Positions 4,677 to 50,116 of a DNA stretch of 64,000 nucleotides are shown in pieces. A program made the translations under genes and the position numbers. The notes under the pieces are model-generated. The model saw nothing but the letters and a program-made list of their open reading frames with translations. It had not been told where the DNA came from and did no database searches. How positions within the stretch are numbered: the first letter of the stretch is position 1; every line of letters starts with the position of its first letter. The DNA lies in contig NW_011887299.1 in assembly GCF_000151315.2 (NCBI RefSeq), forward strand, positions 1,264,885 to 1,328,884. Reading direction: 5' to 3'. This stretch comes from Capsaspora owczarzaki ATCC 30864 (Eukaryota > Opisthokonta > Filasterea).

Positions 4677-7600
4677 GGATGATGTTGTTGTGCTTCTTAT
4701 CGCATTCATATGTTTGAGTGACTTTTGCTTGGAGGTGTTTTGCCTTGCTGACCTTTCTTGACTGCTCGACTGACGCACTGAATCCATGACTTTTGCTTGG
4801 TTTTTGTGATCTTCACATGTGCGCCTCTCACATTCAATATCGACGGCTGTGTGTCTTTTGCAAATTGTGTACTTGCTTTTTGTCCTCAAAACACAGTCGG
4901 TCTCACTGGCACCAAGCTTGGATGCGGAGAAGGAGGCTGTGGCGCGTGCACTGTGATGCTTTCGCATTACGACCATTCGTAAGTTCGCATGAGAAAACAT
5001 TTGCTCGCGCGACCACCACCACCAACCACCCCACCCTCACTTTGATCATCTTGTTATATTCTTTGAACACAGAGCAAAGCGTATCGTTCACCGATCTGCA
5101 AACGCGTGCCTCGCGCCAATGTGTGCAATGGACGGAATGGCCGTGACGACGGTTGAGGGAATTGGCAGCACCTCGACCAAGCTGCACCCCGTCCAGGAGC
5201 GCATTGCCAAGGCACACGGCTCGCAGTGCGGATTCTGCACACCTGGCATTGTCATGTCCATGTACACGCTGCTTCGAAACAACCCCAATCCGTCGCCCGA
5301 GCTCGTCGAGGACGCCTTCCAGGGCAACCTCTGCCGCTGCACGGGGTACCGACCCATTCTCGACGCATTCAAGACATTCTGCACTGACGACTCGGAGCAT
5401 GCCCAGTGCCACATGGCCAACGGCAACGGCGACGCTGCAACGCTCGCTGCTGCCGCCACGACGTCGACACCGCACCCTGCATCCGTCAATGGCGATGCCT
5501 CGCAGCCTGATGTCTCTGTCTCTGCCGGCGCCTCGTCCTGCCCGATGGGTGCCGACTGCTGCCGGAACAAACCTGCCTCGAGCGCCAACGACTGCGGCAC
5601 CGATGGCAAGGCCGCATCCGTTGTCGTCTCTGCCTCTGCTGACGGCCAGCGCAAGACGTTCCATGGCCCGTCGGCGCTGCTCGTCGGCTTGGACTTTGCC
5701 CCCTACGACCCTTCCCAAGAACTCATCTTCCCGCCAGAGCTCATGAATTCCACTCACGCGACAAACACGCGCGCATTGCACATCCAGGGCGAAACGTACG
5801 CGTGGTACAAGCCAATGTCGTTGCCTGCGCTGCTGGAAATCAAGCACCAGCATCCGCACGCTCGCCTCGTGTGCGGCAACACGGAAATTGGCATTGAGGT
5901 CAAGTTCAAGCACCAAATCTACAAGACACTGGTTTCCGTTGCGCATCTGCCCGAGCTGAACACGATTACGCACTCGAGTGCAGGTGTTCGGGTTGGCGCA
6001 TCCGTCACGCTGACCGATCTCGGCGACTACATGAGCCATCTGTGCGAGACCCTGCCTCGCTACCAGACACGCACGTTCAGTGCGATTGTCGAGAACCTGC
6101 GCTGGTTTGCCGGCCACCAGATCCGGAATGTGAGCGCCGTGGCTGGTAACATTGTCACCGCCTCGCCCATCTCCGACCTCAACCCGATTTTCATGGCCGC
6201 GGGCTGCACTCTCACGCTCGCCTCGGCCACTGGCGGACAGCGCAACGTGCCATTCTCAAAGTTTTACAAGGGCTACCGCCAAACGCTGCTCGAGCCGACG
6301 GAAATCATGCTGGCCATCACCATCCCTTACACCCGCGACTTTGAGTTTGTCGAGGCGTTCAAGCAGGCCAAGCGACGCGAGGACGACATTGCGATCGTCA
6401 ACGCGGGCATGCGCATCCTGCTAGAGATGGTGCCTGCTGCCCAGGTCCAAGCAGCAGCGCCAGCTCCCAGCAGCAGCAGCAGCAACAGCAGCAGCTCTGC
6501 CGCCAGCAACGACACTACTGAGCTCGTTCCCGTCATTCGTGAGATTGCCCTGTCGTACGGTGGTATGGCACCCACGACAGTTTTGTCTCCCAAGACCAGC
6601 GAGGCACTCGTCAATCGTGTGTTTGACGAATCCATCGTCCAGGTGGGCTGTGCTGCCCTTGCGGAGGACTTTCCTCTCGGCATTAGCACTCCCGGCGGCA
6701 TGGTCGAGTATCGTCGCTCGTTGAACACGAGCTTTTTCTTCAAGTTCTACCTGATGGTGGTCGAGTCACTCCGCGAGCGTCTGCTCACAGACGTGGACGC
6801 CAACAACGGCCCAACCGACGCATCTGATGGGGCTGCTGTTGTCGCTGGTGCCTCCACTGTCAATGGTGCGGTCAACGGCTCGAACGTTGCTGCGCCCACT
6901 GCCGACCCGCGAGCTCTCAGCGCGACCGAGCGCACACACCGCCCCGTTTCAAGCAGCATCCAAGAGTACCAACGCCCGGTGGAGCACGCCAACCCGAATG
7001 ACCAAGTGGGCGACCCTGTCCGCCACATGTCGGCATTGAAGCAAGCGACCGGCGAAGCCATCTATGTGGACGACATTCCCCGCTATGGCAACGAGCTGTA
7101 CGGCGCCCTCGTGTTTAGCCAGCGTGCGCATGCCAACATTCGATCGATCGATGCCGGCGCTGCTCTCGAGATGCCTGGCGTGTTTGCCTTTTACTCGGCC
7201 AAGGACATTCCCGGCAGCAACCACATTGGTCCGGCTGTCATTGACGAGGAGTGCTTTGCCGAGACGGAGGTCACTTGTGTGGGCCAGGTCATTGGCATCG
7301 TCTTGGCCGAAACGCAGAGCGAGGCTCAGCAGGCTGCGCGCAAGGTCAAGGTCGAGTACGAGGATTTGCCGGCCGTCATTTCCATTCTGGACGCCATCGA
7401 GGCCAAGTCGTACTACTCGCCCATCAACAAGATTCAAACGGGCGACGTTGACGCTGCCATTGCCGCGGCCGAGGTCGTGGTCGAGGGCGAGTTCCACATG
7501 GGTGGTCAGGAGCACTTTTATCTGGAAACCCAGGCGACGCTTGCCGTTCCTTCCCGCGAAGACGGCGAGATGGAGCTGTTTGTCTCGACCCAGGCCCCGA

Positions 7601-8410
7601 TGAAGACGCAGTCCATGGTTGCCAAGGTCCTTGGCGTGGACTACAACCGCGTCAACTGCCGCGTCAAGCGCATGGGCGGCGGCTTTGGCGGCAAGGAGAC
7701 CCGTTCCATCTACGTCTCGTGCGCCGCGGCCGTTGCAGCACAGCTTTCGCGCCGCCCCGTGCGCATCATGCTCGACCGTGACGAGGACATGTGCTCCAGC
7801 GGTCAGCGCCATCCCTTCCATGCAAAGTATCGCGTGGGTGCGACTCGCGCAGGCAAGCTCTGCGGCGTCGACGTCAAGATGTACAGCAACGGTGGCAACT
7901 CGCTCGACCTGTCCGTTGCTGTGATGGAGCGTGCTCTGTTCTCGATCGACAACGTGTACAACATTCCAGTCGTGCGTGGTGAAGGCTTTGTCTGCAAGAC
8001 CAACCTCCCGTCGAACACGGCCTTCCGTGGATTTGGTGCGCCGCAAGGCATGATGATTGTCGAGGCCTGGATGCAGCATCTCGCAGCCGCGCTCAAGATG
8101 GACGTGGATGCGGTGCGCGAGCTCAACTTTTACCACGAGGGCGACCGCACGCATTTCACGCAAGTGCTCACCGACTGCCACGTCGAGAAGACTTGGAAGT
8201 TTGCTCGTGAGAGCGCGCACTTTGCCGAGCGTCGCGCAGCCTGCGACGCCTTCAACAAGGTCAACCGCTGGCGCAAGCGGGGTCTCGCCGCCGTGCCGAC
8301 CAAGTTTGGCATTTCCTTCACCCTCAAGCTGATGAACCAAGCTGGTGCTCTTGTTCAGGTCGGTTGGTGTTCGGGCGCGCGTGTGTGTGTGTGTGTTGTG
8401 TGTGTGTGTG

Positions 8411-8504
<94 letters not shown>

Positions 8505-9668
8505 CTAAACCTCGTTTGGTACCTATTTTTTTGGCTTCTTCCTTTCAGATTTACACCGATGGCTCGGTGCTGCTCACTCATGGAGGCACTGAAATGGGCC
8601 AAGGTCTGCACACCAAGATGGTTCAGGTTGCCTCCCGCGAGTTGGGCATCCCGATGTCCATGATTCACGTCACCGAAACTTCCACAAGCACGGTGCCCAA
8701 CACATCTCCCACCGCTGCCTCCGCCGGCAGCGATTTGAACGGCATGGCCGTCAAGAATGCATGCGAGACGCTGAACGGTCGCCTCAAGCCTTTCAAGGAA
8801 GCCAATCCGACCGGTACCTTTGCTGACTGGGTTCGTGCAGCGTATGTGGATCGCGTGTCGCTCTCATCTACTGGCTTTTACGCCACGCCCAACATTGGCT
8901 ACGACTTTAAGAACAACATTGGAAAGTACGTCGAGACTCTGGCAATTTTGGTTTTTGTGAAGGCCTTGTTTTTGTGTGACGGAATGCTCACCTCGCTGAA
9001 TGCGTCGACTCCTCTGCTAGACCCTTCGCCTATCTTTCGTACGGTGCCAGTGTTGCCGAAGTCGAGATTGACACGCTGACCGGCGATGCCACAACGCTGC
9101 ACTGCACCGTGGTCATGGACGTCGGTCACTCGCTCAACCCCGCCGTCGATATTGGTCAGGTGGAAGGTGGCTTTGTCCAAGGGATGGGTCTTTTCACACT
9201 CGAGGAGAGCCACTGGTCCCAAAAGGGCATGCTGTGGACGCGCGGCCCAGGCATGTACAAGATTCCCGGCTTTATGGACATTCCTCTGGATTTCCGTGTG
9301 CATCTGCTCAAGGATTCCGGCAACGAGTATGCCATCCATGCCTCCAAGGCTGTCGGCGAGCCTCCTCTCTTCCTGGCTGCCAGTGTGTTTTACGCCATCC
9401 GCGATGCTGTTGCATCTGCCCGGTACGCAGGAGAGATGGTTTTGTTGGTGTTTTTTTTTTGTTTTTTTTTTTCGGGTTTTGACTTGTGATTGCTCACTTG
9501 ATATCAATTCTACCGAGTTCTTCCGCTTTGACAGCCCTGCTACGGTCGAACGCATCCGCATGGCCTGCCTCGACGACTTTACCATGCCTCGACGACTTCA
9601 CCAAGCCATTCCCCGTCCCTGCTTTCGACGATCCTGTCAACAAGCACCGCTGGAATGTTGTGGTCTAA
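4172..9668 (+). CDS. XDH: Xanthine dehydrogenase (molybdenum hydroxylase)
   Basis: Exons 4172-4529, 4897-4978, 5073-8358, 8549-8925, 9021-9422 and 9535-9668. The enzyme oxidises hypoxanthine and xanthine to urate in purine breakdown. Order: a His/Gly-rich N-terminal tail of about 60 residues; plant-type 2Fe-2S domain ([10 protein letters not shown]); second 2Fe-2S domain ([24 protein letters not shown]); FAD domain (GNTEIGIE); molybdopterin domain with [35 protein letters not shown] and KAVGEPPLF. The Glu in QEHFYLE, the Arg in AFRGFG and the terminal GEPPL Glu match substrate and catalytic residues of xanthine dehydrogenase rather than aldehyde oxidase. About 1539 residues is longer than animal enzymes (about 1330) because of the N-tail and low-complexity linkers. 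A 19-base tandem duplication in the last exon shifts the frame as assembled, giving a foreign tail to 9718; skipping one copy gives the expected ending at 9668. Probably cytosolic. Confidence 0.95.
4637..4675. repeat. Poly-T tract in XDH intron 1
   Basis: An uninterrupted run of 39 T lies inside the first XDH intron (4530-4896), about 220 bases upstream of the acceptor. Similar long T runs sit in other introns and upstream regions of the window. Confidence 0.95.
8381..8503. repeat. (TG)n microsatellite in XDH intron
   Basis: About 120 bases of TG repeat with a few interruptions near the 5' end lie in the intron between exons 3 and 4 (8359-8548). The repeat is open in frame, so it gives spurious Cys-Val coding frames. 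Acceptor cctttcag at 8541-8548 restores the XDH frame. Confidence 0.95.
9566..9603. repeat. 19-bp tandem duplication in last XDH exon
   Basis: Copies 9566-9584 and 9585-9603 are adjacent and differ at one base (T at 9580, C at 9599). With both copies the frame shifts after LDDFTM. With one copy the protein ends [16 protein letters not shown] and closes at TAA 9666-9668, as expected for the family C-terminus. Confidence 0.92.
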
Positions 9669-18194: not shown

Positions 18195-21100
18195 ATGCCG
18201 CATCGGCAGGCGCCCTCTGCTGCTGCCGCCGCTGCGCCCGACAAGCCAATGGCACCGGATGCCAGTCCCGGCACTGCGTCGATGCCGCTGCCAGAAGGCC
18301 TTGGCTGGGTGATTATACGTCACGACACTGCGCAGGGTCAAATCGTCCTGTACGAGCCTGCCAGTCGCCAGCTCGCCGTCCAGCCACTCTCACGGCTCGA
18401 GATGCACATTCCCATGTCGTCCAACTTGCTGACGTCTGTTCCGTCGCGGGACTCGGCGGAAGCTGCTCCAAGCGCATCGTCGTCCTCCTCGGCGTATACC
18501 ACTCCCATTCAACAATCTGCCTCGTCGTTGTCGACAATGTCTGGGACAAATCTGCCAAGCATTGCGCTGTCCCTCATTCCCGTTTCAATGCAACATGCAT
18601 CATCATCGTCGCATGAGCGTTTGCCAGGCCAAGCTGCGTCGTCCGCACTGTCCGAGTACAATTCGAGCGAGATTGGTCAAATTGTGCTTCCAGGTCATTC
18701 TGCCATGTCCAACCCAAATTACAGAATGTACCACCATCGCTATGACAGCCCGACGCGGCTTCTGACATGCCCGACGTGCCATCAACGACTTCCGGCTGGA
18801 TTCCGCTTGTTTGCGAGGATGGCTGAGGATGTCGATGAACCCGACTCTGCGTTTGCGTCTGGCGTGGGCTCGGGATCGTCTTCTGCATTCAACAGTGGAG
18901 ACGCTGACGGAGATAGCGGCGATGATGTCAATGTCAATGACGAATCGGGCCAAAGCGACAACGAGGACGTCAGTTTGCGAAGTGGACATGTTTGGTCACG
19001 CCGCCGCCGCAGCCGCGCATCGCCGACTCCTGCTGCTGCTGCACGCACAACATCCATTTCACTACCAGATGCTCTACAATCCGAAACCATGCTTGTTCGA
19101 CGCAATTCTCATCTGCCGCGACTTGCTGCACCGCAAGGCACCCACCACCAAACACCACACGCCGTTTCTGGCGAACAGTCAGCATCATCGGCGGCGGCGG
19201 CGAGCTCTTCGCGGGTGCAGGTTGCTCCATTGACCATGGGCGATTTGGTGCCCGTCGGTCGCCACATTCATGCAGATCCAAATTACTTTAGCTTGCTTGC
19301 TGCTGCCACCCATCCTTCGCCTCTTCCCTCCCTGGCCGCGTCCTCCAGTCAGTCATCTGCCGCAAGCTCAAGTCAACCCGCACAGCCGCTCCACGCCGCT
19401 CCTACAGGCAGCCAAGCCAGCGCAGACGTGCAGAACGACGACGACGACGACGACGATCTTCTTCCGGAAGCAGCGCTCAACACGGGCTACTACAAGCGAT
19501 TCTTCATCGAGGAGCAACGGATTGGCTCTGGCCTTCGCGGCCAAGTGTTCAAGTGTCGCCACGAAATTGACAACTTGTTCTTGGGGCACTATGCTGTCAA
19601 GAAGGTCCCGGTGGGCGACCGCAAGCCGTGGCTGCTGCGCATGCTTCGGGAAGTGCACTTGCTCAATCGACTGCACCACGCCAACATTATTGGCTACAAG
19701 CACGCCTGGTGTGAAATGCACCAGAGCACGCCCTTCGGCCCCGCCGTGCCCTGTCTGTTTATTTTGATTGACTATGCCAATGCGGGCAATCTCGCGCAGT
19801 ATTTATGGGCCCGGCCCCGCGTCGCTGACGCATCTTCGTCCCACGTTGGGGAGTCTCCCCGCGCCATCCGAGCTGCAGCACGTCGGAAGCGGTTGGACGC
19901 GGCCGCAGCCGCAGTCACCGCAGGCTCGCAAGACGATACAAACCCCGATCCGCTGGCCGCGCACGCGCGATATCTACCGGATGAAGAAATTTTGCGGCTG
20001 TTCCTGGACATTACCCGCGGTTTGCACCATTTGCATAGCCATGGTATTATTCATCGGGACGTCAAGCCGCAGAACATGCTCCTCACCATTGATGCCGAGG
20101 ACGAGGATGCCGGTGGCCGCGGGGCTTCCACTTCCGACAACAATTCTGAAGGAACTGCGGCCTCATCGGCGGCAGCCAGACGCCGCTCGCTCACCGGCCG
20201 CATGCGAGCGCTCGTCTCTGATTTCGGCGAGTGTGAAAACGAATTCAAGCCCGTCTTGCGAAACCGCACTGGTGCAACCGGCACGCTCGAGTTTGTTGCG
20301 CCCGAGTTGCTAGCTGTCGATGCTGCCACCGGCCAATTCCCGGCGGCGTATTCAACTCAGAGCGACCTGTTTTCCCTGGGTGTCGTCCTGTTCTCCATGT
20401 GCTTTGGGCGATTGCCATGGCGAACCACCTNNNNNNNNNNNNNNNNNNNNNNNNNNNNNNNNNNNNNNNNNNNNNNNNNNNNNNNNNNNNNNNNNNNNNN
20501 NNNNNNNNNNNNNNNNNNNNNNNNNNNNNNNNNNNNNNNNNNNNNNNNNNNNNNNNNNNNNNNNNNNNNNNNNNNNNNNNNNNNNNNNNNNNNNNNNNNN
20601 NNNNNNNNNNNNNNNNNNNNNNNNNNNNNNNNNNNNNNNNNNNNNNNNNNNNNNNNNNNNNNNNNNNNNNNNNNNNNNNNNNNNNNNNNNNNNNNNNNNN
20701 NNNNNNNNNNNNNNNNNNNNNNNNNNNNNNNNNNNNNNNNNNNNNNNNNNNNNNNNNNNNNNNNNNNNNNNNNNNNNNNNNNNNNNNNNNNNNNNNNNNN
20801 NNNNNNNNNNNNNNNNNNNNNNNNNNNNNNNNNNNNNNNNNNNNNNNNNNNNNNNNNNNNNNNNNNNNNNNNNNNNNNNNNNNNNNNNNNNNNNNNNNNN
20901 NNNNNNNNNNNNNNNNNNNNNNNNNNNNNNNNNNNNNNNNNNNNNNNNNNNNNNNNNNNNNNNNNNNNNNNNNNNNNNNNNNNNNNNNNNNNNNNNNNNN
21001 NNNNNNNNNNNNNNNNNNNNNNNNNNNNNNNNNNNNNNNNNNNNNNNNNNNNNNNNNNNNNNNNNNNNNNNNNNNNNNNNNNNNNNNNNNNNNNNNNNNN

Positions 21101-21467
21101 NNNNNNNNNNNNNNNNNNNNNNNNNNNNNNNNNNNNNNNNNNNNNNNNNNNNNNNNNNNNNNNNNNNNNNNNNNNNNNNNNNNNNNNNNNNNNNNNNNNN
21201 NCTTTGTCTTTTGTTGGGTTGGTTTGTTGGGGGCAGCGGGGGGTGAGGGGCAAATTAAATTTGTTGACGACGTGTCCAAACTTACTTTTTTGGTGACAAC
21301 CCAGCGCCAGTTCACTCTCGAGCTCGATGATGTCGGCTGCCGCGCAGATCGCGCTGGTTGCCATTGCCCACATGAGCTCGGTCTTCCCGCTCGAGCTTTC
21401 CTGGAATGACTGCGTGCCGTACAGTCTGATTGGCGTGCATTGTCTGTTGATGAGTTACCAGCCGTAA
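18195..21467 (+). CDS. IKS1: IKS1-like serine/threonine protein kinase (gap-interrupted)
   Basis: The first exon runs from 18195 into an N run at 20431-21201, and a likely last exon lies at about 21311-21467. Near the N-terminus GWVIIRHDTAQGQIVLYEP and a CPTCHQRLP motif match the conserved start of fungal IKS1 proteins. A long Ser-rich, acidic linker follows. The kinase domain begins near residue 435: RIGSGLRGQVFKC, HYAVKKVPVGD, NIIGYKHAWCEMHQ, HGIIHRDVKPQN, SDFGECENEF, GATGTLEFVAPELL and SLGVVLFSMCFGRLPW. GLRGQVF, KKVPVGD and DFGECE are hallmarks of this branch. Inserts of 50-60 residues separate subdomains V/VI and VII. After the gap, one frame gives a hydrophobic stretch (AAQIALVAIAHMSSV) ending at TAA 21465-21467. 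Fungal IKS1 proteins have hydrophobic C-termini, so this may be the real tail. The start is the first ATG giving the family-like N-terminus; the frame is open further up. Confidence 0.82.
20431..21201. other. Assembly gap (771 N)
   Basis: Unsequenced run inside the C-terminal lobe of the IKS1-like kinase. The true length is unknown. All frames running through it are artefacts. Confidence 0.99.
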
Positions 21468-21603
21468 CGCCCGGGCTTTTTTGTCGACCGGATCTTTTTC
21501 TCTTTCCCCTGCTCTTTTTGTGTAGCTTGTACATCCATGTACCACTTGTTCCAATCCGACTCGTAGCTTATAAGTGACTTGCTTCATCTGAAACTTTGGC
21601 CAT

Positions 21604-21605
<2 letters not shown>

Positions 21606-21641
<36 letters not shown>
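21606..21641. repeat. Poly-T tract upstream of hydroxylase gene
   Basis: A run of 36 T ends 10 bases before the start codon of the fatty acid hydroxylase, so it would lie in its 5' UTR or promoter. Confidence 0.95.
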
Positions 21642-21651
21642 CCGCAATTTG

Positions 21652-23178
21652 ATGATTGCTTTGGTTGAATCCTCGGTCGACGCGCTCGCCGGCGTGTGGC
21701 AGGGCTCCCACGACATGTGGACGTCGCTCTGGATGCGCGTGTCCAGCAGCGCGTCTGACTTTAACCTGTGGGTCTGGGGCACCCTCATCTCCCACCTGCT
21801 CGTCTTCTGGCTGCTCAACGCATTCTACTTGACGGTCGACTTGACTCAGGTAAATAATGATAACAATAAAAAGAACGTGCAATTCGTCCTCCTTCGGTCT
21901 TCAATGGGAAGTCGATAGACACGCACTGTTTTATTGAGTGTGCAGTGTCATGCAGCGAGCGAGTGAGTGAGAGCGAGTGAGGCAAAAGGAAGGTCAGCCG
22001 AACGAACTCGAAAACCCGCTTGCTTCGGTTTGTTGGCTTGCGCATCCAACATGCTTGATGACCGACCTGCCGCTCTTCGCTCTTCCAAGCCACAACCCTG
22101 CACTTCCAAATGATGCTATACTTGACTCGCTGCTCCGAGCACTATGTCCCATGACCGTGTGTGGGATTGTGTGACGCAAAAGCAAAAACCCCAAAGGTTG
22201 TGGTTTGGTTCAAGCAAAACACCACTCTGAGAATCTGAGAAATACTCAAAATTGTGTTCCGTCTGTTTCTCGCTCAGAAACCGAAATGGATGCTCAAGTT
22301 CAAGATTCAAGACGGACAGAACCAGCCAGTCGACAAGGCGCGCTTGTACAGCGCCATCAAACGCGCCCTGTTCAACCAGCTCTTCATGATGCCAGTGTTT
22401 TCGGCAGCGTCGTTTGGACTCGCTCAGGCGCGCGGGATTGAATTTGGAACGCCTCTGCCGAGCTTCCAAACCATCATTTTCCATCTCGCATGCTATGGCG
22501 TTGTGGAGGAAATCATGTTCTACTACAGCCACCGCCTGCTGCACTGGGGCGTCCTCTACAAGCGGATTCACAAGCTGCATCACGAGTGGACTGCTCCGAT
22601 TGGCATCACGGCCATTTATGCGCATCCCATCGAGCACCTGCTGTCGAACCTGATTCCCGTCGCTGCTGGTACAGTGTTTTTGAAGGTCGTGTTTTGGCTC
22701 TCGTTTTCGAGCACTGACAGCCCAGCGCACAAAATGAATTGCGTTTGTTTACAGGTCCTCTGATCATGGGCTCGCACCTCGTCGTGTTCTGGATTTGGTA
22801 CTCGCTTGCCATCTTTGTGACGTGCACCGTGCACTCGGGCTACCATCTGCCATTCATGCCGTCCTCCGAGTTCCATGATTTCCACCATCTCAAGTTTACC
22901 AACAACTTTGGCGTGCTGGGCTTCCTTGATTGTGAGGGTTGTCGTCTTTGCGAAGCGGTTTGTGCCCCGCAAGGGTTTTTGTTGTTGCGGTGGACGCTGA
23001 CTGAACCAACCTGTTTCTGCTTGGGCTGGACCTGTCAAAATCAGGGCTTCATGGCACCGACAAGACTTTCCGGGCGTCCGTGCAGTTCCAGCGCCACTTT
23101 ACGTCCATGTCTCCGCGTTCTCTGAAAGAGATTGTGCCCGACGTGAAGGCCAAGGCTGCGGACGCCAAGTCCAACTGA
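21652..23178 (+). CDS. Fatty acid hydroxylase superfamily protein (FAXDC2-like)
   Basis: Exons 21652-21849, 22278-22668, 22755-22931 and 23045-23178 give 299 residues. It is an integral membrane di-iron enzyme of the sterol desaturase/fatty acid hydroxylase superfamily, with His boxes HRLLH, HKLHH, HSGYH and HDFHHLKF placed as in C4-methylsterol oxidase and FAXDC2. Hydrophobic segments flank the boxes (WGTLISHLLVFWLLNAFY, MGSHLVVFWIWYSLAIF). GVVEEIMFYYSHRLLH and IHKLHHEWTAPIGI are typical. It acts in the ER membrane on a sterol or sphingolipid substrate that the sequence does not reveal. The C-terminus is charged and lacks a KKxx signal. The first intron (428 bases) has GA-rich repeats (21957-21982). 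Confidence 0.9.
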
Positions 23179-31823: not shown

Positions 31824-32060
31824 NNNNNNNNNNNNNNNNNNNNNNNNNNNNNNNNNNNNNNNNNNNNNNNNNNNNNNNNNNNNNNNNNNNNNNNNNNNNN
31901 NNNNNNNNNNNNNNNNNNNNNNNNNNNNNNNNNNNNNNNNNNNNNNNNNNNNNNNNNNNNNNNNNNNNNNNNNNNNNNNNNNNNNNNNNNNNNNNNNNNN
32001 NNNNNNNNNNNNNNNNNNNNNNNNNNNNNNNNNNNNNNNNNNNNNNNNNNNNNNNNNNNN
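31824..32060. other. Assembly gap (237 N)
   Basis: Unsequenced run upstream of the unrecognised minus-strand gene, probably hiding one or more of its 5' exons. Confidence 0.99.
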
Positions 32061-44161: not shown

Positions 44162-45817
44162 TCAGACCAAATTCAACCCAGCGCGCAACCTCTCCAGCAC
44201 GGTGGTGGCATCCTGGTCAAAGGAAACCGACCGGTTGGTGAGCGAGCTTGGCACCTCGGAATGCTCAGTGTTGATGCGAATAAACCGCGCCTGCGGGTTG
44301 TGCTCCACAGCATCCTCGCACGGATAACGAACCACCATGGGAGTGTTAAACCCAGCGCCAACCTCAATCACCACCAAGCGCTTGTCCCGCGTCGACTTGA
44401 GCCAGTTGTGAAAGGCCGCTCGCAGCTCGCGATACGGCTGATCGATAAACCAGTTGCCACCACGCACATTCATCATAACGGGGCCACCGCAGTTGGGACA
44501 CCGCGGCACCACATCGGCGTTGGTGATTTCCTGGGTGGCGGGGTCGACGAACGGCAAGGCAGCGTCAATCAGCGGGCGAGTGGGCCACACTTGTTGTGTG
44601 CACGGCTTGAGGCACTGCATCCGTCCATACTCGCCTTGCGCCGTGTACACGCGCGTCTTGTCAAAGCCATTCCGCTCAAACATGCCATCGGCGTTGGAGG
44701 TGAGAACAAAGTGGTGCTCGGCGGCTCGGCTTTGGGCGATGGCGAGCAGGTTGCCGTACACGGAACTGAGCGGCCAGTTGTACCGCGCCTTGTCGAGCTG
44801 CGACAGCAGGTAGCCCCACTGCAACTCGGGCGTCCAGTTGGTAAAGCCAATAAACTCGTACATGCACCTGTGGCCACGAGCGGCCATGGCTGGGAAGAGT
44901 CGCTTGAAGAGGGCGCGGTCGTTGTAATCGAGCCCAGCAGCCGCGCTCAGACCCGCGCCGCCAGCAATCAAGACATAGTCGGCGTCGCGCAGCCACTGTG
45001 TTGCCTTCGATAGCTTGGCGTTGAACGCAACGTCGGGCTGTCCGTTCGAGACGGCAGGCGCGTCCAACGGCAGACCGAATGCCCGACGAAGCGCGGCAAT
45101 GTACAGCTCTTCGTCCTCTGGGCGGAACACGTTAAACACGACTCGATCGAGCGTCGGGTTGTTGGCCAAAAACTCGAGCACGGTCGCGACGGCAATCCGA
45201 GCGCCGCGGGCAGCAGGGAACCCAAACACTCCGGTTGAAACGCAGCAGAGCGCGATCGAACGAGAGTCGGGCAACTCGCTGGCGCACTGCAAGCACGAGC
45301 GGTAACTCGAGATCAAATCGGCATCGTCCCGCGGTGTCACATCCCGGCCTCGCTCAATCGCAGGGCCCACCGTGTGCAGCACAAAGCGCGAGGGAAGATT
45401 GTACGCGCGAGTTGCTCGTGCAGTGCCGTTCGGCTCGGGTTGGTACTGCTGAGCACGGCGGATGAGCACACAATCGTCTCTCAGACGCGGACCGGCTGCG
45501 GCGTGGATGACATTGTCGATGCAAGGGTGATTCGGGCGGAAGCAACCAAGGAGACCCGAGTTGGCGGCATTCACAATCGCATCCACCTTGAGCGATGTAA
45601 TGTCGCCTCGCCAGAGGACGATGCGTGAGGCGAGCGGGTGCTGGGTGATGTCCAATCCCAGCAAATCTGAGACGCTTGGCAACGTTGCGGCATCGACCAC
45701 CCCGCGCGCGACCGAGGCGTGCTGGAGCAGCAGGTCAATGTCTGCTTGCACCTTGTTGCCGAGTGGCGCGTTCTCCATGGCGTCGCGCACAGTGAGCAGC
45801 GCGCGCACCGTTCGCAT
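44162..45817 (-). CDS. Zn-macrodomain fused to class-M sirtuin (SirTM)
   Basis: One uninterrupted frame of 551 residues. The N-terminal half is a macrodomain (about 62-235): IVLWRGDITSLKVDAIVNAA, then NSGLLGCFRPNHPCIDNVIH with Cys-His-Cys spacing typical of the zinc-containing lineage, and ALCCVSTGVFGFP as the second ADP-ribose loop. The C-terminal half (about 268-548) is a sirtuin: DYVLIAGGAGLSAAAGLDYN, FVLTSNADGMFERNGFD, zinc ligands CLKPC and CPNCGG. The usual GIPDFR and NID-HG signatures are altered as in class-M sirtuins, which transfer ADP-ribose to lipoylated carrier proteins while the partner macrodomain removes it. In bacteria these are separate genes beside lipoate ligase and GcvH-like carriers; here both are in one chain and no such neighbours are seen. 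The start is uncertain: an in-frame ATG is at 45817, but an ATG at 46118 in another frame may be the real one (see findings). Confidence 0.9.
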   Translation of the reverse strand: MRTVRALLTVRDAMENAPLGNKVQADIDLLLQHASVARGVVDAATLPSVSDLLGLDITQHPLASRIVLWRGDITSLKVDAIVNAANSGLLGCFRPNHPCIDNVIHAAAGPRLRDDCVLIRRAQQYQPEPNGTARATRAYNLPSRFVLHTVGPAIERGRDVTPRDDADLISSYRSCLQCASELPDSRSIALCCVSTGVFGFPAARGARIAVATVLEFLANNPTLDRVVFNVFRPEDEELYIAALRRAFGLPLDAPAVSNGQPDVAFNAKLSKATQWLRDADYVLIAGGAGLSAAAGLDYNDRALFKRLFPAMAARGHRCMYEFIGFTNWTPELQWGYLLSQLDKARYNWPLSSVYGNLLAIAQSRAAEHHFVLTSNADGMFERNGFDKTRVYTAQGEYGRMQCLKPCTQQVWPTRPLIDAALPFVDPATQEITNADVVPRCPNCGGPVMMNVRGGNWFIDQPYRELRAAFHNWLKSTRDKRLVVIEVGAGFNTPMVVRYPCEDAVEHNPQARFIRINTEHSEVPSSLTNRSVSFDQDATTVLERLRAGLNLV

Positions 45818-46118
45818 GCGGTGACCAAACTCCGAATCGGCTTCGTCTTGGTCGTCGACGTCGTCCGTATCCAGTTGGTCGTCGTCGTCGTCGTTGTCGT
45901 TGTCGTCGTCGCTGTCTTGGTGCTCGTTGTGGTTGTGGGAGTGTCCATGGCCAGCGCTGTGGCTGTGGCTGTGACTGTGACTGTGACTGCTGCCGTTGGT
46001 ACTCGCGCATCAGTTTGCGCTCGACGCGACGCAGCGCTGCAAGCAAGGTAGCGAACGGCTGGCTTCCAGTGACTGCAGGTGACCACGGTGTGTTTAGTTG
46101 CAGTTCCTGTGCGGACAT
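45818..46118 (-). other. Possible 5' coding extension of macro-SirTM gene
   Basis: All three minus-strand frames are open for most of this stretch. One begins MSAQELQLNTPWSPAVTGSQ at 46118; another, in frame with the macrodomain, reads SHSHSHSHSH then GHGHSHNHNEHQDSDDDNDN and leads into FGHRMRTVRALL. A TGA near 46010 blocks the second frame upstream. Simple repeats (CAGTCA-type, GAC-rich) lie between, so a repeat-length error or unrecognised splice could join the frames. Confidence 0.4.
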
Positions 46119-48394: not shown

Positions 48395-50116
48395 ATGTCT
48401 GCCGAGTCTGCTGCCACCCCCGCCGCCTCTGCCTGGACGCTGATTGCGCGCGTCACCTCGCTCCCCGTCGTCCACTCTGCCGTCGACAAGATGACTGGCA
48501 TCTACGAAAACACAAAGTCGTCCAGCGACTATGTCAAGCGCACGCTCGAGTCTGTCGAGGGCTCGGTCGCCCTTGCCGCCGCTGCCGCCAAGCCCCTGAT
48601 CCAGCCGTTCGAGCCCACGCTCCGTGGCATTGACACGTTCGGCTGCCGCCAGCTCGACCGTCTCGAGGAGACGCTGCCCATCATCCGCAAGCCCACCGAC
48701 GAGATTGTCGCCGACTCGCGCAAGCTTGTCGAGGACGCCGTCACGCAGGGCAAGCACCGCCTCGAGGTGCTGCGCGACACAAACGAGAAGCTCGTCAAGG
48801 ACGTTGTCCGCGCTGTTGTCGACGAGCGGGTCAAGCCCCGCGTCGAGCACCTGCTCACCACCACTGAAAAGACGGTCGACTTTTACCTGCCCAACAACGC
48901 CTCGGCCGCCTCTGCTGCCGACGAGGCCGAGGTCGAGACGCTCACGCGCGTCCAGAAGCTCTCCACCAAGGTCCAACGCCGTCTGTACAGCCGTGCCATG
49001 ACCCAGATCAAGGACGTCCAGCTCCGCTCCCAGCAGAGCCTCGAGTCGTTCAAGTTTACCGTCGACCTCATCCAGTACGCGCAAGAGAACATTGACCTGC
49101 AAGCCGGCCGCATCCGCTCGACCATTGCCAAGGGCAAGGCCTCTGTCGAGTCCATTGGTGGCATTGAGGATGTCCGCAAGTCTGTCGCCGCCGCCTCCGA
49201 GCTCGTCCTCTCGCTGTCCGAGTCTGCCATTGGCGCCGCCAAGCACCCCCGCACCTCTGCCGCCCTTGTTGCCGACCACGTTGCCACCCGTGCCTCTGCT
49301 GCTTCTGCCAAGCTGTCCTCCACCGCGCAGGCTGCCTACACTCGCTCTGTCGAGACTGTCACGCCCTACACGACCGCCGTCACCAACGCTGCCCAGTCGG
49401 CCTACACGCGCTCTGTCGACACTGCCGCTCCTTACACTAACGCTCTCCAATCCAAGGCTGCCCCCTATGTTGCTTCCCTCAAGGCCTCTGCCCTGCCGCT
49501 CGCTCAATCGCTCCAGACACACATCCAAAATGCCACCAACGCGCCCGCTGCCGTTGCCTTGAAGGAACGCGCACAGCCTGCCCTTGCCTCCCTCCAGCTC
49601 GCCTACACTCGCCTGCACAAGGACCTTGTCGACCTCGCTGCTGTCCTCAAGTCTGCCCGCACCACCCAACCGGAAGAGGCTGCCGCCAACGCCCAGGCTC
49701 ACGCCGAGGTTGTTCGTCTTGCCGCCCTCCTCCAGGAAGGCCTTGCCACTCTTCAGCACCTGACTGCTTCGATTTCTTCCCAGTACACTTCCACTTTTAG
49801 CCAGCTGACTGCTCTTGCCCAGCGCGCTGCTTCCTTCCTGCCCGCCAACCGCTTCTTCTCCTTTGCTGCCGCTGCTGCTGCTGCTGCTGCTCCCCAAAAC
49901 GAGGAGGCCGCGTCCTCGATTGAGCTGGAGGAGGTTGCCGCCAAGGCCGCCCCTGCTGCCGAGTTTGTCGACGCGTCCGAGCGCCTCTCCGAGAGCGAGG
50001 AAGACGAATCCAACGCCCAGTTTGAGGAGGCTGAGGAGGTTGACGACGAAGAAGAAGAGCTCGAGCAGGACGACGACGAGGAAGCTGACGACGATGAAGA
50101 TGCTCAGGACGAGTAA
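48395..50116 (+). CDS. Perilipin family lipid-droplet protein
   Basis: Single exon, 573 residues. Perilipins coat lipid droplets and gate lipase access. The N-terminal part (about 10-130) matches the PAT/perilipin domain: ARVTSLPVVHSAVDKMTGIY, EGSVALAAAAAKPLIQPFEP, CRQLDRLEETLPIIRKPTDE and ADSRKLVEDAVTQGK. The middle is helical and alanine-rich with repeated 11- or 22-residue-like units such as AAYTRSVETVTPYTTAVTNA and AQSAYTRSVDTAAPY, suited to amphipathic helices on a lipid surface. The C-terminus is strongly acidic (EEAEEVDDEEEELEQDDDEE). It has no signal peptide and no membrane helix. A long minus-strand frame over it is a codon-bias shadow. Start: first ATG after a C-rich leader, directly before MSAESAATPAAS. 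Confidence 0.88.
   Translation: MSAESAATPAASAWTLIARVTSLPVVHSAVDKMTGIYENTKSSSDYVKRTLESVEGSVALAAAAAKPLIQPFEPTLRGIDTFGCRQLDRLEETLPIIRKPTDEIVADSRKLVEDAVTQGKHRLEVLRDTNEKLVKDVVRAVVDERVKPRVEHLLTTTEKTVDFYLPNNASAASAADEAEVETLTRVQKLSTKVQRRLYSRAMTQIKDVQLRSQQSLESFKFTVDLIQYAQENIDLQAGRIRSTIAKGKASVESIGGIEDVRKSVAAASELVLSLSESAIGAAKHPRTSAALVADHVATRASAASAKLSSTAQAAYTRSVETVTPYTTAVTNAAQSAYTRSVDTAAPYTNALQSKAAPYVASLKASALPLAQSLQTHIQNATNAPAAVALKERAQPALASLQLAYTRLHKDLVDLAAVLKSARTTQPEEAAANAQAHAEVVRLAALLQEGLATLQHLTASISSQYTSTFSQLTALAQRAASFLPANRFFSFAAAAAAAAAPQNEEAASSIELEEVAAKAAPAAEFVDASERLSESEEDESNAQFEEAEEVDDEEEELEQDDDEEADDDEDAQDE

Follow-up and report, generated by a model that had tools for sequence, protein, structure and literature searches.

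Capsaspora owczarzaki encodes a member of the Mfs1 family, in which a zinc macrodomain (Zn-Macro) and a class M sirtuin (SirTM) lie in one polypeptide. Both domains and their catalytic residues are present in the protein, and the two-domain anatomy, as read from the sequence, is correct far beyond chance. The protein is probably a writer and eraser of ADP-ribose in a single chain. On the chemistry of SpySirTM and of the Zn-Macros, from which this model is taken, the C-terminal SirTM would move ADP-ribose from NAD+ onto a target protein, at an acidic residue, and the N-terminal zinc macrodomain would take it off again. It is most likely a self-contained, reversible mono-ADP-ribosylation enzyme with a target that is perhaps redox-related, an activity and a target that we infer.

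Fungi, oomycetes, and amoebae are already known to have fused proteins of this type. The name Mfs1 was given to the fungal protein in 2015, in a paper whose genus list includes Entamoeba and Phytophthora, and in 2024 Mfs1 was reported as cloned from five eukaryotes (Fusarium, Aspergillus, Candida, Entamoeba, and Phytophthora), with the Fusarium structure solved (PDB 8RSN). A preliminary description of this DNA had stated that fused forms are reported in fungi, which is true but understates their spread, since Entamoeba and Phytophthora also have them. Searches of the open-access PMC literature turned up no reference to an Mfs1 from Capsaspora or any other holozoan, nor to the sister branch of Myxococcota and Heimdallarchaeota described below, and the words Capsaspora, myxobacteri, and Asgard are absent from the main text of PMC11490716.

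Domain Layout of the Capsaspora Protein

The window is the whole stretch of 64,000 nucleotides that was analyzed. On its minus strand, an uninterrupted ATG frame of 551 codons with no stop inside occupies 44162-45817 and is divided as follows.

44162..45817, minus strand: fused Zn-macrodomain-SirTM ORF, Mfs1-like, 551 aa (open frame and PDB match 8RSN)
45083..45631, minus strand: Zn-macrodomain (MacroD-type), residues 63-245 (Pfam Macro; PDB 8rsn, 8rsi, 5kiv, 8rsm; predicted structure)
45020..45082, minus strand: interdomain linker, residues 246-266; the macro match ends at residue 245 and the SirTM match starts near residue 268
44198..45019, minus strand: class M sirtuin (SirTM) domain, residues 267-540 (phmmer matches to 8rsn and 5a3a; predicted structure)

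For the two halves together, the PDB entry that matches best is 8RSN, the macrodomain-fused SirTM (Mfs1) of Fusarium, which covers residues 63-516 with an E value of 4.5e-105. As in Mfs1, the macrodomain comes first and the SirTM follows in the single polypeptide. The joining of a Zn-macrodomain and a SirTM in one chain, and its presence in a holozoan genome, are thus as the preliminary description had them. An alignment (A3) in which separate macro and SirTM proteins were lined up with the full-length fusion was dropped because, in every one of the 12 SirTM rows examined, about one-third landed on the macro half. The halves were therefore aligned and modeled apart, and the predicted structures cover each half, not the whole chain.

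A three-helix bundle at the N terminus is typical of Zn-Macros. The model of the macro half starts with a helix at residues 2-13, predicted with low confidence, followed by a helix at 21-38 and short helices before the macro fold, and the 551-aa frame may be incomplete at its N terminus. One upstream segment, which may encode an additional helix, is a weak lead.

45996..46118, minus strand: candidate N-terminal segment, Met-led, in another frame, beyond a simple repeat at 45840-45995 (intron or indel)

This segment (46118-45996) was not accepted as the N terminus: when it was aligned with seven members of the branch, between 1 and 326 of 500 shuffles reached the observed score. Its best match may fall upstream of the real start in the locus of that relative.

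The Zinc Macrodomain

Pfam Macro matches residues 82-209 (E 3.2e-26), and the best NCBIfam match is PRK04143, a protein-ADP-ribose hydrolase, over residues 4-245 (E 1.9e-75), its 253.7 bits lying below the cut-off of 272. The Cys/His/Cys loop that had been claimed for this half is present.

45521..45544, minus strand: zinc loop C92-x4-H97-x-C99, in invariant or near-invariant columns of alignments A1 and A4; Asp101 and His105, the catalytic dyad, follow

This Cx4HxC loop (C92, H97, and C99), which defines a Zn-Macro, replaces the glycine-rich catalytic loop. Two further marks of Zn-Macros are found, the NAAN motif as N83-A-A-N86 and the Dx3H dyad as D101/H105. A fold search with the model of this half (pLDDT 91.1) placed six Zn-Macro chains first (best folds 8rsj, 8rsi, 8rsl, 5kiv, and 8rsm). 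8RSN itself stands only 27th in that list; its crystal macrodomain is described as devoid of zinc, with a distorted loop.

The residue that supports the zinc loop is changed. SauMacro Asn46 was placed by spacing, through staphylococcal relatives, and read column by column; at this position the Capsaspora protein has Thr, as do five of six branch relatives; the sixth, L156, has Ile, and all six other aligned rows have Asn. Fusarium Mfs1 is reported to have Cys there and about 75% less zinc in its macrodomain. Restoring Asn in the Fusarium protein lowered zinc even more, and this one substitution is thus not enough to account for the low zinc. By analogy, zinc occupancy of the Capsaspora macro half may be weak too.

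The Class M Sirtuin

Searched alone against the PDB with phmmer, the sirtuin half matched 8RSN (1.2e-55) and 5A3A (SpySirTM; 9.1e-29), both of class M, and these were the only PDB sequences matched up to E = 1; SIRT5 and Sir2Tm are in the PDB yet went unmatched. Pfam SIR2 does not reach E 0.001 on the protein, and the NCBIfam deacylase subfamily PRK00481.1-3 matches it weakly (1.3e-09, 37.4 bits versus a cut-off of 243). The positions that make up the putative active site are these.

44693..44695, minus strand: Asn375, equivalent to SpySirTM Asn118, which is needed for transfer in SpySirTM (alignment; role from PMC4518038)
44633..44638, minus strand: QG motif (Gln394, equivalent to SpySirTM Gln137), in place of the HG of deacylase sirtuins; context AQGEYG
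44489..44614 (span), minus strand: small-domain zinc-site cysteines Cys402, Cys406, Cys440, and Cys443 (conserved columns)
44462..44464, minus strand: Arg452, equivalent to SpySirTM Arg192 (alignment)
44339..44359, minus strand: GAGFNTP, pyrophosphate loop (class motif GVGx[NT]TP)
44270..44272, minus strand: Asn516, equivalent to SpySirTM Asn258, a contact of the adenine ribose (alignment)

All four SpySirTM residues that have been tested (Asn118, Gln137, Arg192, and Asn258) are kept, and Phe42 is replaced by Leu. The activity of SpySirTM is dramatically lower when Asn118, Gln137, or Arg192 is mutated (PMC4518038), and judged from the alignment the transferase site of the Capsaspora protein looks complete. 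The loop GAGFNTP fits five of the six fixed positions of GVGx[NT]TP, and its change of V to A is common to the Corallococcus-type SirTMs L025 and L146. The NAD-site motifs, QG for HG and GAGFNTP for GVGx[NT]TP, are atypical, as the preliminary description had recognized. Asn at the Asn118 position is invariant in the 26 rows of alignment A5. The Fusarium chain in 8RSN has Ala there, either natural or engineered; if it is natural, Fusarium Mfs1 may be a weak transferase.

The model of the SirTM half (pLDDT 94.3) has 5A3A as its top fold (TM 0.88), and SpySirTM and Mfs1 rank ahead of all other sirtuins. The E value of yeast Hst2 is about twelve orders of magnitude weaker than that of SpySirTM, and SIRT5 and Sir2Tm lie far below SirTM. 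In trees, the grouping of the half with class M against eight or four HG sirtuins received an SH-aLRT of 100 in a quick tree and 100/100 in a fuller one; this outgroup consists of myxobacterial HG sirtuins, with class I-IV and U rows left out. Two outcomes had been named in advance as speaking against the original reading, a sirtuin half that groups with class III or U and a macro half without zinc ligands. The zinc ligands were found, and the trees put the sirtuin half in class M, with myxobacterial HG sirtuins rather than class III or U rows as the comparison.

Prokaryotic Relatives and Phylogeny

Prokaryotic genomes were scanned at one per species, and the best 80 of 578 confirmed stretches were examined. 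Seventy of these 80 (L025-L094) are of the Zn-Macro kind; the loop pattern is found in 69 of them, the exception being L075, and by hand count 55 of the 70 have a SirTM frame in the fetched stretch. None of the best 80 of 578 carries both domains in one frame, nor does any of the five Myxococcota loci and one Heimdallarchaeota-phylum locus that have a close SirTM. Among the best 80, the closest pair for both halves is that of Corallococcus praedator (L025), with 61% identity in the macro half and 45% in the SirTM half; its macro and SirTM genes overlap by ATGA. The close Myxococcota SirTMs are 45%-49% identical to the query half. Identity to Fusarium Mfs1, computed with an aligner other than that used for the Corallococcus figures, is 48% for the macro half and 41% for the SirTM half. 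In Gemmiger formicilis (L094:4488-6175), one Zn-Macro is followed by two tandem SirTM frames. A contig from a viral collection (L105:3683-4534) encodes a full Zn-Macro, grouped with those of Butyrivibrio and other gut bacteria, which could be prophage cargo.

In surveys with the SirTM half, four matches below 1e-80 were found in 145 genomes of the Corallococcus order, of which 45 gave a match at E up to 0.001; 5 of 195 genomes of the phylum Myxococcota gave one at E up to 1e-30. In the phylum of the Heimdallarchaeota locus L026, 227 genomes yielded 1 strong match (1.3e-79) and 10 weak ones, and the genome of L026 itself yielded none. A Zn-Macro adjoins the SirTM at all six strong-match loci. 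Eight of the weaker myxobacterial matches (L148-L155) were read and are HG sirtuins, not class M; such an HG sirtuin, with PDFR and an ILMFGD or VLMFGD motif and a weak match to the SirTM query, occurs in many Myxococcota.

Phylogenies of both domains, which the preliminary description had proposed, place both halves with Fusarium Mfs1, Myxococcota pairs, and Heimdallarchaeota-phylum sequences; eukaryotic Mfs1 is represented in them by the Capsaspora query and the Fusarium chain. In the macro tree (42 rows), the query, Fusarium Mfs1, five Myxococcota rows, and two Heimdallarchaeota-phylum rows form one clade with support of 95/93, the bootstrap not having fully settled. In the SirTM tree (38 rows), the other 26 class M rows are split by 100/99 from the query, Fusarium, five Myxococcota rows, and one Heimdallarchaeota-phylum row. 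Against the rooted outgroup this eight-row set receives only 85/37, and the program warns that the long branch of the 100/99 split meets the long branch of the outgroup. The tree of concatenated pairs (34 rows, no outgroup) gives the eight-row branch 100/100, with several of its rows flagged for letter make-up. In the quick trees, the branch, then of six rows, had an SH-aLRT of 91 for SirTM, and Fusarium fell outside the group of the query for the macro half. Two marks that do not depend on trees point in the same direction, the replacement of Asn46 and a DPATQEITNAD-type insert in the SirTM, which all six branch rows of A5 share with Fusarium. Taken together, the sequences indicate that the Capsaspora protein shares an ancestor with the two-gene Zn-Macro/SirTM operons seen in Myxococcota and in the Heimdallarchaeota phylum; two genes would have become one chain by fusion.

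The position of Fusarium is less firm. Its branch is marked as long in each of the five trees, and its macro half is nearest by identity (51%) to L050, a row from the Clostridia/Actinomycetota side, not to the query. Capsaspora and Fusarium pair in the best concatenated tree with support of 71/10, and trees constrained to keep the two as a pair are not rejected for either the SirTM half (p-AU 0.463) or the macro half (0.49). On these values, a single origin of the eukaryotic fusion was not accepted.

Genome Setting

The genome searched has 29 contigs with a total of 27.46 Mb; the contig that carries the window is 1.5 Mb long. Six stretches of the genome match T-box genes, and its macroH2A macrodomain agrees with PDB 7NY6, the macroH2A macrodomain of Capsaspora owczarzaki, at 167 of 170 aligned residues. 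The neighbors identified by Pfam in the window are eukaryotic in kind: Thg1 at 42.7-43.2 kb, split over two overlapping frames, bZIP at 51.1-53.5 kb, Nramp at 34.8-36.2 kb, a xanthine dehydrogenase-like gene at 5.1-8.5 kb, and a tyrosine kinase-like gene at 0.4-1.2 kb. The window also holds, at 48395-50116, a perilipin-family gene of a holozoan protist (Pfam Perilipin 1.2e-35). Stretches of N, either gaps or withheld sequence, occur at 20431-21201 and 31824-32060, the former accounting for a dip in G+C to 0.327 at 20001-22000.

A search of the genome with the whole protein returned the protein itself and four macro-only matches. None of the four has the zinc loop in its macro part; a CxxxxHxC in another frame of L005 is a chance occurrence. 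Pfam Macro matches seven stretches in the genome, and Pfam SIR2 exceeds its cut-off in six stretches elsewhere in it.

Target and Alternative Explanations

Bacterial contamination of the assembly would agree with the bacterial origin of the nearest non-eukaryotic relatives found and with the lack of an intron in the 551-codon frame. The 1.5 Mb contig and the Thg1, perilipin, bZIP, Nramp, tyrosine kinase-like, and xanthine dehydrogenase-like genes around the frame speak strongly against it, as does the fusion itself, which sets the Capsaspora protein apart from all prokaryotic pairs found, and contamination can be dismissed for practical purposes. A eukaryotic lipoyl-dependent cycle, in which Mfs1 would modify and demodify a lipoylated GcvH-type carrier, has more to recommend it. 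The systems of S. aureus and S. pyogenes act on such a carrier (PMC4518038), and GcvH and lipoyl-transfer loci exist in Capsaspora. However, the proposed search for GcvH-like carriers and lipoate ligases recovered one GcvH gene, as two matched exons whose fragments are below the NCBIfam cut-offs, together with one LplA/LIPT1-like and one LipB-like locus. We read a third GcvH stretch as the canonical C-terminal helix; among the best candidates, which are those that the search scores, there was no second gene of the GcvH-L type. Of the basic residues of the macrodomain that are reported to contact GcvH-L, SpyMacro Arg172 is replaced by Ala and Arg183 by Asp, and SauMacro Arg175 by Glu; Arg is kept at the position of Spy Lys175/Sau Arg176, so that the basic patch is only partly present. 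A similar pattern (Ser, Asp, Glu, and Arg) is found in MorMacro, which is reported to be unable to demodify GcvH-L (Ariza 2024). The same report states that the macrodomains of Mfs1 and of minimal operons cannot demodify GcvH-L and that Mfs1 macrodomains do clear PARP1 E988Q. Around the sister operon loci, neither GcvH nor a lipoate ligase is among the 20 proteins scanned, a subset of the ORFs. From these sequences, a lipoyl carrier appears to be a poor candidate for the target, and the lipoyl-linked cycle that the preliminary description had suggested for eukaryotes is quite improbable.

The enzyme could instead be degenerate or mainly self-modifying, the macro half clearing the SirTM's own or stray ADP-ribose with no dedicated target. 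PMC11490716 gives no known target for any Mfs1, and both the loss of Asn46 in the Capsaspora macro half and the Ala of the Fusarium chain in 8RSN would suit such an enzyme. On the other hand, the Capsaspora SirTM retains every catalytic residue tested, and the invariance of the Asn118-position Asn throughout A5 argues for selection on transfer activity. This explanation is unlikely, though less so than the lipoyl cycle.

Under the preferred reading, that of a reversible writer and eraser, we infer by analogy that both halves are active and act on the same target, which would be a redox-linked protein rather than lipoylated GcvH-L. The genes around the sister operons are suggestive of redox control. 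In the Myxococcota loci L166 and L167, the gene directly upstream of the pair encodes an Rrf2 regulator; in L025 the Rrf2 gene lies one gene farther upstream, beyond a SnoaL-like gene. At L169, of the Heimdallarchaeota phylum, MarR, PNPOx-like, and nitroreductase-like genes lie directly upstream of the pair on the same strand. Two of the five Myxococcota loci (L165 and L168) have no redox gene among the ORFs scanned, which belong to the same set of 20 proteins. The five genes of L169 are closely spaced (4946-8664, minus strand; nitroreductase-like, PNPOx-like, MarR, Zn-Macro, and SirTM) and may constitute an archaeal redox operon. In Candida, deletion of mfs1 is reported to improve growth in peroxide (PMC4518038). 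In the fusion, writer and eraser would stay in constant proportion and work on the same substrate, and we propose that the mark could thereby be made and cleared as redox conditions change.

The combined proposal, that eukaryotic Mfs1 derives from a Zn-Macro/SirTM operon of the Myxococcota/Heimdallarchaeota type and that the Capsaspora protein is a catalytically complete writer and eraser of a non-lipoyl redox protein, is tentative and has somewhat less than an even chance of being right as a whole. If it is true, a close unicellular relative of animals is available that could yield the first Mfs1 target. An apparently intact Capsaspora Mfs1 and a two-gene prokaryotic sister group, several members of which lie near redox-type genes, offer two handles on Mfs1 targets, and the result argues against extending the bacterial lipoyl model to eukaryotes.

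Comparison with Known Systems

The other macrodomain proteins of the genome (MacroD-like, GDAP2-like, macroH2A, and large ORFs) share the macro fold with the fusion protein, but the four that it matches differ from it in having no zinc loop in the macro part. The extended SirTM operon of Staphylococcaceae and Streptococcus (GcvH-L, LplA2, Macro, and SirTM) uses the same two enzyme families. In contrast to the Capsaspora fusion, it includes a dedicated lipoyl carrier and ligase, together with a basic docking patch that the Capsaspora macro half has only in part, and its sequences sit in a different branch of the trees. The Myxococcota Zn-Macro/SirTM pair (L025 and relatives) is the closest prokaryotic system to both halves among those found and has the DPATQEI-type insert in common with them, but it consists of two genes where Capsaspora has one chain. 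Mfs1, as seen in the Fusarium structure (8RSN), has the same domain order in one chain, a zinc loop, and a QG sirtuin, and it belongs to the same tree branch as the Capsaspora protein. The two differ at the position of Spy Asn118, which is Asn in Capsaspora and Ala in the 8RSN chain, and at the residue that supports the zinc loop, which is Thr in Capsaspora and Cys in Fusarium.
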